This document shows, in pieces, positions 17,149-19,636 of a DNA stretch of 35,271 nt. The stretch comes from Euryarchaeota archaeon RBG_19FT_COMBO_69_17. Its GTDB lineage: Archaea; Thermoplasmatota; Thermoplasmata; RBG-16-68-12. The notes below the pieces were generated by a model. It did not search any database, was not told the DNA's origin, and saw only the letters and a program-made list of their open reading frames with translations. The position numbers were made by a program, and so were the translations under genes. The stretch covers positions 17,820-53,090 of the forward strand of contig MGWD01000003.1 of assembly GCA_001800825.1 (NCBI GenBank). The letters are read 5' to 3'. Position 1 is the first letter of the stretch, and every line of letters begins with the position of its first letter.

Positions 17149-17210
17149 TCATTCCTGAGAACGCCGGGACCGGCCAAGGATTATCTCCCGCGAGGCCCTT
17201 GGTCGGCCCG

Positions 17211-17966
17211 ATGCGCAAGGTCCTCGGGATCCTGACCCAGGACTTCCGGCTGTACCACGACCTCGTGGCCGCCCTCAAGGCCCGCGACATCCCGTTCACG
17301 AGCCTCTCCTTTGCCAAGCGCGTGCCCGAGAACGTCGGCGTCGTCCTCACGTCCCCCGCGGAGACCGCGAGGGTCCGCGGCCCTCACGTCGCGGTCGACG
17401 ACATCGAGAACGGCCTCGCGAAGGCCCTCCAGCTCCTCCGCGGGAAGTCCTCCTGGCGCGAGCTCCTGATCGGGATCGACCCGGGCCACGAGCCGGGCTT
17501 CGCGGTCATCGGGGACGGGGAGGTCATCGACACGCGCCTCGCGGAGAGCCCCGAGGCCGTCCTCGAGCACGTCCGCCGGAGCCTCCGGACGTTCCCCGCA
17601 GACCGAGTGAAGGTGCGGGTCGGCCACGGGGACCCCACGAACCGGAACCGCATCCTGAACACCCTGGCCCGGGAGGACCTCCGGGTCGAGGTCGTGGACG
17701 AGGCGGGGACGACCCGCCGCACAGCCCAGCCCGACGTCGACGCGGCGATCGACATCGCCCGGACGCCGGGGGTCCGGGCCGTCCCGCCCTTCGAGGTCCA
17801 CCCTACGCGAGGGGAGCTTCGGGAGATCCAGCGGCGGTCCCGACTCGGGAGCGAGGGGGAGGTCACGATCACGTCGGAGCTCGCGGGCGCCGTCGCTCGC
17901 GGGGAGGTTTCCCTCGACCAGGCGATTGCGAGACAGCGCCGGCGGGACCGTCGTTCACAGGATTAG
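17211..17966 (+). CDS. Conserved archaeal protein with RuvC/RNase H-like fold signature
   Basis: ELLIGIDPGHEPGFAVIGDGEVI resembles RuvC first strand (GIDPG); VEVVDEAGTTRRTAQPDVDAAIDIAR resembles the C-terminal acidic motif. GTG 17199 is an alternative start. Confidence 0.7.
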   Translation: MRKVLGILTQDFRLYHDLVAALKARDIPFTSLSFAKRVPENVGVVLTSPAETARVRGPHVAVDDIENGLAKALQLLRGKSSWRELLIGIDPGHEPGFAVIGDGEVIDTRLAESPEAVLEHVRRSLRTFPADRVKVRVGHGDPTNRNRILNTLAREDLRVEVVDEAGTTRRTAQPDVDAAIDIARTPGVRAVPPFEVHPTRGELREIQRRSRLGSEGEVTITSELAGAVARGEVSLDQAIARQRRRDRRSQD

Positions 17967-18368
17967 CCGGTAGCGGGCCTCGATCTCCTTCCGGCGCTTG
18001 AAGTACATCTCCTCCGCGATCTCCCCCGCCGCGAGCCTCGCCTCGAGGGCCTCGAGCTCCCGCTCGAAGTCGGCCCGGAACCCCTGGGAGTACTCCGTGA
18101 CGACGCGTTCGAGGAGCTCGAGGAGGTCCCTCCCCCGCTGGGTCGCCTGGTACACGATCCGGGGCCGCCCGCCGGCCGGGAAGACGGCGGCCCGGTCCAC
18201 GAGCCCCCAGTCGAACAGCTCGAGGAGCTGCTTGTCTACGGACGTCCGCCGGATCTTCAGCTTCTTCGCGAGGTCCTCCGGATGGTCGAACCCCTGCCGG
18301 AGGAGCCGGAGGATCTGCCGTCGGGTCTCCGAGGACGCGACCCGGACGAGTTCCAACGGCTCCGGCAT
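17955..18368 (-). CDS. wHTH (ArsR-like) transcriptional regulator with C-terminal SHOCT-like helix hairpin
   Basis: ELVRVASSETRRQILRLLRQGFDHPEDLAKKLKIRRTSVDKQLLELFDWGLVDR; C-terminus LEALEARLAAGEIAEEMYFKRRKEIEARY. Confidence 0.82.
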   Translation of the reverse strand: MPEPLELVRVASSETRRQILRLLRQGFDHPEDLAKKLKIRRTSVDKQLLELFDWGLVDRAAVFPAGGRPRIVYQATQRGRDLLELLERVVTEYSQGFRADFERELEALEARLAAGEIAEEMYFKRRKEIEARYRLIL

Positions 18369-18439
18369 GGGCGCGCCGCAAGCCGCATCGGCCTACTTCA
18401 ACGTTCGTCCGCGCGCGCCACGACGTCATCTCCCGGACA

Positions 18440-18454
18440 GGAGAGGATCTCTCC
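18440..18454. promoter_or_regulatory. Palindrome GGAGAG-GAT-CTCTCC, candidate operator in the divergent intergenic region
   Basis: Perfect 6-bp arms around 3 nt; overlaps a second hairpin CTCCGC-GCGG-GCGGAG at 18451-18466; TATA-like TTGTATAAATAAACGG lies at about 18489-18504. Confidence 0.45.
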
Positions 18455-18524
18455 GCGCGGGCGGAGCCTATCGTTTTTGTCTGCGACTCTTGTATAAATA
18501 AACGGCGAACCCTCGGTAGGCCCG

Positions 18525-18716
18525 ATGTTCGCCAACAAGTCGTCCGGCATGAGCAGGGTCCTCGCGAGCTCCTTCGAGTCCGGGGACGGCGGCTTCCTCC
18601 GCAGGCTCCGGCGCGGCCGGGGCCCCGAGATCCTCGAGCCCAGGACCCCGCCCGAGCTCCTCGCGCGCAGGGAAAGATATTTGGCGCTGACCCGTGCTCC
18701 CCGGGGGAACCCATGA
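18525..18716 (+). CDS. Possible 63-aa basic protein of unknown function
   Basis: MFANKSSGMSRVLASSFESGDGGFLRRLRRGRGPEILEPRTPPELLARRERYLALTRAPRGNP. Start about 30 nt from the TATA-like element; stop overlaps the next start (ATGA). Confidence 0.4.
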   Translation: MFANKSSGMSRVLASSFESGDGGFLRRLRRGRGPEILEPRTPPELLARRERYLALTRAPRGNP

Positions 18717-19636
18717 AGCGATCCGAGCTCCTCCAGCGGCTCGAGGAGCGCCTCGCTCGCGGCGAGATCTCCGAGGCGACGTACCTGGGCATCAAGGCCC
18801 GGTACGACGCGGAGCCCGAGGTCCCGGAGGCGGAGGCCCCGTCCCTCGAGACGACGATCGCGGACGCCGTGGCGCGGGCGACGACGGAGGCTTCCCGGGC
18901 GGGCGACGAAGCCTCCCGCGCGGTCGGCGAGGCCATGCGCGCGGTCGAGTTCTCGGGGATGGGCGTGAGGCTGAGCGACGAGGCGATCCGGATCGCGGGG
19001 GCGGGTGTCGTCACGGGGCAGCCCGTCCGCACGCGGATGTTCAAGTCCGCGGGGAGCGCCCGGGTCCAGGGGGACCTCGAGGCGGACGAGACGAAAGTGG
19101 CCGGTGCGTGCGCGTTCGAGGGCAGCGTCACGACGGACGCGTTCCGCTCCTCCGGCTCCGTGCGGGTCGCCAAGGCCCTCACGGCGGACCGCGTCGAGTC
19201 GAGCGGCTCCCTCGAGGTGGGGGAGGACCTCACCGCGGACGAGGTCGTCTCGAGCGGGAGTCTCAAGGTCGGCGGGTCCCTCCGCGCGGACCGCCTCCAC
19301 GCGAGCGGGAGCCTCGCCGTGGCGGGGTCCCTCGTCGCGGACGACGTGACCGTGGAGCTCGGCGGAAGCTCCCGGGTCGGGGATGTCCACGCGGACGAGG
19401 TCCGCGTCAAGGTCACGGGCGGGCTCCTTCGGACCCGGGGCGACCTCCGGGCCGGCACGATCCACGCCGACTCCGTCTACCTGGAGGGGACGACGGCGAA
19501 CCTCGTGCGCGGGGACCGCGTGACGATCGGCCCCCACTGCCGCATCCAGGCCGTGGAGGCGGAGGAACTCGTCGTCCACGAATCGAGCGAGGTCCTCGAG
19601 CGGCGAGGGCCGACGACGGGCGTGTCCAAGGGATGA
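18713..19636 (+). CDS. SHOCT-like N-terminal domain plus bactofilin-like repetitive beta-helix protein
   Basis: N-term LLQRLEERLARGEISEATYLGIKARYD; six consecutive 17-residue repeats (SSGSLEVGEDLTADEVV SSGSLKVGGSLRADRLH ...). Confidence 0.8.
   Translation: MKRSELLQRLEERLARGEISEATYLGIKARYDAEPEVPEAEAPSLETTIADAVARATTEASRAGDEASRAVGEAMRAVEFSGMGVRLSDEAIRIAGAGVVTGQPVRTRMFKSAGSARVQGDLEADETKVAGACAFEGSVTTDAFRSSGSVRVAKALTADRVESSGSLEVGEDLTADEVVSSGSLKVGGSLRADRLHASGSLAVAGSLVADDVTVELGGSSRVGDVHADEVRVKVTGGLLRTRGDLRAGTIHADSVYLEGTTANLVRGDRVTIGPHCRIQAVEAEELVVHESSEVLERRGPTTGVSKG
19046..19351 (+). repeat. Six 51-bp (17-aa) coding tandem repeats
   Basis: SAGSARVQGDLEADETK / VAGACAFEGSVTTDAFR / SSGSVRVAKALTADRVE / SSGSLEVGEDLTADEVV / SSGSLKVGGSLRADRLH / ASGSLAVAGSLVADDVT. 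Confidence 0.85.

Follow-up and report, generated by a model that had tools for sequence, protein, structure and literature searches.

The question raised by this locus is whether two divergently transcribed genes, one encoding a winged-helix regulator (W) and the other a bactofilin-like protein (B), work as one unit through a short helical hairpin that they share. The window analyzed is the whole stretch of 35,271 nucleotides in which the pair lies. A first-pass annotation had proposed that W ends and B begins with the same SHOCT-type hairpin, and we found both ORFs, with the end and start strings that it quoted, where it had placed them. W (137 aa, ArsR-like, with a C-terminal SHOCT-like hairpin) is encoded at 17955-18368 on the minus strand and B (307 aa, a bactofilin-like beta-solenoid with an N-terminal SHOCT-like hairpin) at 18713-19636 on the plus strand, so that the two start codons stand head to head with 344 bp between them. 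The closest named relatives of the window are Thermoplasmatota, namely Euryarchaeota archaeon RBG_16_67_27 and the soil MAGs EA_*. On its other side W lies tail to tail, with a 12-nt overlap, with the gene of a 255-aa protein (17199-17966, plus strand) that has only a weak match to DUF460 and is kept as a neighbor of W in the family only.

Characterization of W and B

W matches the HTH_5 profile with 23.3 bits (cut-off 22), as do all 44 of the relatives tested (44/44), which identifies an ArsR-like winged helix, and Foldseek likewise relates its structure to ArsR/MarR-type regulators. The AlphaFold2 model (pLDDT 93.7) shows a winged helix-turn-helix followed by a long helix and a hairpin, with helices running to residue 113 and from 119 to 132. 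The search for the metal-binding cysteines of the ArsR/SmtB family found none, W (P0001) being devoid of any cysteine, and the ArsR/SmtB family model NF033788 gave 27.5 bits against a cut-off of 55. Inside the genus W proteins are 81-86% identical. The C-terminal sequence of W is ELEALEARLAAGEIAEEMYFKRRKEIEARYRLIL, and in 25 diverse members the hairpin residues L108, L112, G115, E119 and Y122 are invariant. A second W-like protein with a winged helix and a hairpin is encoded in genome G021 (L159:4975-5619, minus strand), where no bactofilin adjoins it.

The first-pass annotation had described the partner of W as a polymer-type beta-helix protein related to bactofilins, and three lines of evidence agree. 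Window B reaches the Bactofilin profile PF04519 marginally (28.1 bits, cut-off 27.9), and 38 of 44 relatives match it at E<=0.1, the best at 5.2e-16. The AlphaFold2 model (pLDDT 91.2) consists of a hairpin with helices at 3-15 and 21-33, a helix and a beta-solenoid spanning residues 84-298, and a profile comparison matched B to bactofilin A (BacA, 2n3d) with an E value of 0.0018. Of 44 B proteins, 14 matched the Toastrack-type profile DUF2807, the best at 9.9e-8, compared with the 38 that matched Bactofilin. A Foldseek search of B against the PDB returned nothing at E<0.001, probably because the number of rungs differs among long solenoids. From its sequence B is classed as bactofilin-like and cytosolic, and it probably forms filaments or scaffolds. 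It begins with MKRSELLQRLEERLARGEISEATYLGIKARYDAE, and this hairpin is the best-kept segment of the protein, with a mean pairwise identity of 52%, where the solenoid has 35% and the linker 22%.

Comparison of the two hairpins

Residues 104-132 of W (17973-18059, minus strand) and 6-34 of B (18728-18814, plus strand) align without gaps over the pattern L-x3-L-x2-G-E-[IL]-x-E-x2-Y, and in the AlphaFold2 models each segment forms a two-helix hairpin whose turn falls at the same position. An HMM of the W tail, trained without any B sequence and run against 4,473 ORFs, recovered 35 of 50 B proteins at E<=0.01; nothing outside B fell below 0.05, the best other ORF being at 0.051, and a profile of the winged-helix part of W gave no B match. 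Direct alignment of the W and B hairpin profiles by hhalign gave a probability of 96.3% (E 1.6e-9), and two control windows of W reached at most 2.5%. The proposal of one hairpin type on both proteins is borne out by these three approaches, and by homology we assign both segments to the same SHOCT-like hairpin.

That charged amphipathic helices came to look alike by chance or convergence has in its favor that the motif is short and rich in Glu, Lys and Leu. The low scores of the control windows, the absence of any other match below 0.05 among the 4,473 ORFs and a hairpin register that is the same across the class speak against it. Chance likeness is statistically ruled out at the profile level, and we regard this explanation as highly improbable. 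Recent copying of one hairpin onto the other, or gene conversion, was also rejected, as same-genome pairs are no more alike than cross-genome pairs (P 0.30). The W and B hairpins evolve as two separate lineages, and a partial Mantel test of their divergence gave r 0.19, with some control windows up to 0.45.

As to membership in the SHOCT family, hhalign gave 94.9% for W and 94.8% for B against an alignment that is thin (3 sequences of the same organisms), and the SHOCT similarity expected by the first pass was therefore found for both segments. The curated Pfam model PF09851 scored B at 18.2 bits with hmmscan and 22.9 bits in the genome search, below the cut-off of 27; B relatives reached up to 25.8 bits and 40 of 44 family members matched at E<=0.1, and no match was reported for window W at E<=1. 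Because the match to SHOCT is at about 95% at the profile level yet the Pfam scores of B stay below the curated cut-off, we name the module SHOCT-like. Compared with SHOCT proper (PF09851), the hairpin has the same pair of short helices on either side of a G-x-I-[ST]-x-E turn, but differs in its sub-threshold score, in its N-terminal position in B and in the lack of a Pfam match in window W. The C-terminal part of the gas vesicle protein GvpG (PF05120) also matches the W hairpin (P0001, residues 102-134; E 0.0038 for window W), and 19 of 44 W relatives match this profile, the best at 4e-4, which hints at this hairpin being used in GvpG as well; no gas vesicle context was seen around W and B. 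Other Thermoplasmata proteins (at L185, L189 and L180), some with transmembrane helices, end with the same hairpin type and may belong to a wider set of hairpin-tailed envelope proteins in this group.

Distribution of the pair in the Thermoplasmatota

B and W vary together across 61 relatives. A pattern scan for W over 84,980 species retrieved 51 loci, all titled Thermoplasmata, DHVE2 or unplaced Euryarchaeota/archaeon MAGs, and B was found in the same locus for 50 of these 51, the exception being a contig that ends beside W. In 29 representative neighborhoods W and B are the only conserved genes, any other being common to at most six, and DnaK/DnaJ and CDC48-type ATPase neighbors, considered as functionally linked candidates, were dropped since they are not kept beyond the family. 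The conservation in relatives on which the first-pass annotation had made its proposal depend was thus observed. W-B is a real, class-wide module in Thermoplasmatota, and its hosts include Aciduliprofundum, a genus of which a representative has been cultured.

We then related W to the hairpin itself in 300 genomes sampled from the class, of which 62 carry a hairpin-bearing B and 76 a hairpin-less bactofilin. W accompanies the hairpin-bearing B in 61 of the 62 genomes, and a strong W occurs in only 1 of the 76 with the hairpin-less form; the Fisher P of 4e-37 for this association overstates the case because the genomes are not independent. Families f17 and f22 hold both states. In 56 of the 62 genomes W is divergent from the hairpin-bearing B and within 400 bp of it, and the other six comprise four contig breaks, one insertion of a secreted beta-helix protein (G230) and one convergent arrangement (G116). 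In one genome (G272) W is present without a hairpin-bearing neighbor. At L111 (the same place as L052) a transposase-like fragment separates W and B, which face each other. In L158, whose genome belongs to the Aciduliprofundum-like family f19, W and B are separated by an inserted gene (L158:6777-8744, minus strand) for a secreted NosD-type beta-helix/fn3 protein that has a transmembrane helix at its C-terminus.

Replacement of B by a membrane protein

Three genomes (G133, G083 and G096) carry W without B, and in each of them the divergent neighbor is a secreted PKD-domain protein. The C-terminus of the PKD protein of G133 comprises a transmembrane helix, RNNKRYNHEKKKK, a basic stretch and then a hairpin, KIEELDIKLLKGEISEETYLNEITKF, that was found at E 1.8e-4 by a W-tail HMM not containing it. 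Because it follows a hydrophobic helix and a basic stretch, this hairpin should be cytoplasmic. The partners of two unpaired W proteins (L154 and L155) are cut by contig ends, which leaves just one complete hairpin-bearing swapped partner. This one, at L153 (2455-4776, plus strand), is a secreted PKD/PD40-propeller/DUF11 protein with a transmembrane helix and a cytoplasmic C-terminal SHOCT-like hairpin; it is divergent from W, and looks like a membrane partner in the place of the bactofilin. In keeping with the first-pass idea of a shared module, the loss or swap of the partner of W goes with the hairpin, as seen in the 61/62 versus 1/76 genomes and in the swapped partner of G133, and the constant feature beside W appears to be the hairpin, not the solenoid.

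How the hairpins act has more than one possible answer. Both might bind a common third partner, for example an adaptor or the inner side of the membrane, in which case W and B would be co-located or compete without touching each other. A membrane-anchoring role was proposed for SHOCT-like domains by Ravi et al. (PMC11237479), the two hairpins evolve as separate lineages, and two further SHOCT proteins in the genome of the window could share such a ligand. In addition, a SHOCT domain tested for self-association gave a negative result (PMC3581485), the sole published test that our literature search found, which makes "oligomerisation module", the term used in the first pass, a risky label for the hairpin; that assay concerned the self-association of one SHOCT domain, not of a pair. 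On the other hand, the hairpin of G133 is already joined to a transmembrane helix, and therefore membrane anchoring is not what it adds there. W is also tied near-exclusively to hairpin-bearing partners, though SHOCT proteins occur in genomes without the W-B pair as well. We thus rate a third partner as somewhat unlikely, and prefer a direct contact between the hairpins of W and its neighbor.

A palindrome between the divergent genes

Outside the genus of the window, the intergenic region contains the palindrome TTCAAC-N6-GTTGAA in 30 of 37 cases (14 exact, 8 with one mismatch and 8 with two), mostly at 23-35 bp from the W start. The exact form is present in 1-3 copies per genome (1.3-2.3 Mb) in 18 genomes, and in 15 of these 18 a copy lies at the W or the B promoter. 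In the genus of the window the letters differ but the 6-6-6 layout persists, as TCTCC-N6-GGAGA with a variable spacer, at an offset of 58-60 from the W start in all members examined (15/15). The copy of the window, ATCTCC-CGGACA-GGAGAG (18428-18445), is the single one in 35 kb and is the predicted operator; a slightly stricter form has 2-6 copies genome-wide in related genomes.

Genomes in which W and B are separated have copies of the palindrome at W, at B or at both, with sites upstream of B in L163 (exact) and L164 (one mismatch), and exact sites upstream of W in L165 and L158. The palindrome was also considered as a purely W-side element, and this was rejected on the basis of G254, which has the two genes on separate contigs and an exact site at B. 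A one-mismatch copy separates W from the PKD gene in G133. The position and palindromy of these sites lead us to predict that W binds them.

Operator evidence of this kind requires no contact between proteins, and W could be a local regulator of B with an effector of its own, the hairpins merely stabilizing or dimerizing each protein and their likeness having no functional link. Divergent regulator-target pairs are common, and SHOCT-like hairpins occur on unrelated proteins. This explanation does not, however, account for the hairpin-less bactofilins, where W is absent in all but 1 of 76 genomes, or for the swapped partner, which bears the hairpin; furthermore, two of the four such hairpins found in the genome of the window are on the adjoining W and B, in a search with a model that includes both. 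We consider it quite unlikely.

Proposed mechanism

The reading that we favor, with moderate confidence, is that W and B form a dedicated two-protein module in which W regulates itself and controls B, its activity being set by hairpin contact with B. W, a dimeric winged-helix protein by homology, would bind the 18-bp palindrome (6-6-6) between the genes, and the position of the latter suggests that W would repress itself and control the B transcript. The B scaffold or filament would expose its N-terminal SHOCT-like hairpin, and through its own hairpin W could be held or released by B according to the amount, place or assembly state of the latter, so that B transcription would track the scaffold state. 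In lineages whose W stands beside a membrane-anchored surface protein with its hairpin on the cytoplasmic side, and not beside B, W would read that protein instead. Points against this reading are the negative self-association test of a SHOCT domain, a correlation between W and B hairpin divergence (r 0.19) that does not exceed that of some control windows, same-genome hairpins that are no more alike than others, a single swapped partner with a hairpin seen complete, and the W of G272. This model builds on what was seen directly, namely the hairpin homology, the conservation of the pair, its joint loss, one partner swap and the palindrome, and from these we infer DNA binding by W, hairpin-hairpin contact, the sensed signal and the sign of regulation. 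Sensing of the assembly state by W, suggested in the first pass, would be one form of such a signal. More tentatively, W may represent an archaeal one-component device in which a winged-helix regulator reads a cytoskeletal polymer or a surface protein via matched hairpins and turns filament state into transcription.

Relation to known systems

The closest precedent for W-B is the bacterial DUF2089-Toastrack system. Ravi et al. 2024 (PMC11237479) described DUF2089 proteins, composed of a zinc ribbon, an HTH and a SHOCT-like C-terminus, that are encoded beside Toastrack proteins (DUF4097/DUF2807/DUF2154, e.g. of the YvlB type), and this pairing was proposed to couple membrane state to transcription. 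Part of the Toastrack proteins carry a SHOCT-like domain at the N-terminus, and operons that combine Toastrack with ABC transporters were described as well. In both cases an HTH protein ending in a SHOCT-like hairpin is encoded close to a beta-helical protein, at whose N-terminus such a hairpin can also be present. In contrast to DUF2089, W has no zinc ribbon or cysteines and starts directly with the ArsR-like winged helix, and B is bactofilin-like and cytosolic by prediction, not a clear Toastrack core. W-B is also archaeal, with divergent genes and a palindrome between them, and no PspC/LiaF parts were seen at the locus. At five loci from several lineages (L112, L116, L117, L122 and L125) the gene downstream of B, in the same orientation, encodes an ABC exporter ATPase, with ABC-2-like permease genes beyond, in an echo of the bacterial operons. 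W-B resembles the DUF2089-Toastrack scheme but is not a member of it. The HAAS-PadR-like dyads of the same study (PMC11237479) similarly pair a separate winged-helix regulator with a helical signaling module fused to a sensor or scaffold domain, HAAS being a three-helix domain with a GxP motif, but in W-B the same two-helix hairpin, without GxP, is on both proteins.

Among bactofilins (PF04519, BacA 2n3d and the haloarchaeal halofilins) B has the right type of repeat solenoid and variable flanking termini, and differs by a longer solenoid (about 210 residues), the SHOCT-like N-terminal hairpin and a near-obligate neighboring regulator. Bactofilins are not mentioned in PMC11237479, and our literature search found no paper treating both SHOCT and bactofilin. 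With two small proteins, a usually unique operator, relatives that naturally lack the hairpin and a partner swap that arose in nature, W-B is a minimal test case for what SHOCT-like hairpins do and for the regulation of bactofilins in archaea, a little-studied subject. On this pair one could ask directly whether SHOCT-like hairpins bind each other and carry a signal. It also suggests a link from the state of the scaffold or envelope to transcription throughout an archaeal class.

A small ORF upstream of B

Between the operator and B lies a conserved small ORF of 63 aa (18525-18716, plus strand) that begins with MFANKSSG, ends with RRERYLALTRAPRGNP and overlaps the B start by ATGA. A TATA-like element, TTGTATAAATAA (18490-18501, plus strand), which would serve a small ORF-B transcript, is aligned about 25-30 bp upstream of the first codon of the small ORF in most members of the genus. 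Among the family members, to which these counts apply, 17 of 18 have the end of the frame exactly 4 nt inside B, for lengths of 30-68 aa; in some families the intergenic region is shorter than about 160 bp and leaves hardly any space for such an ORF. In frame 0 pS exceeds pN in 12 of 12 close pairs, but not consistently so in the other frames, and the ORF is probably a translated leader peptide or a small protein coupled to B.
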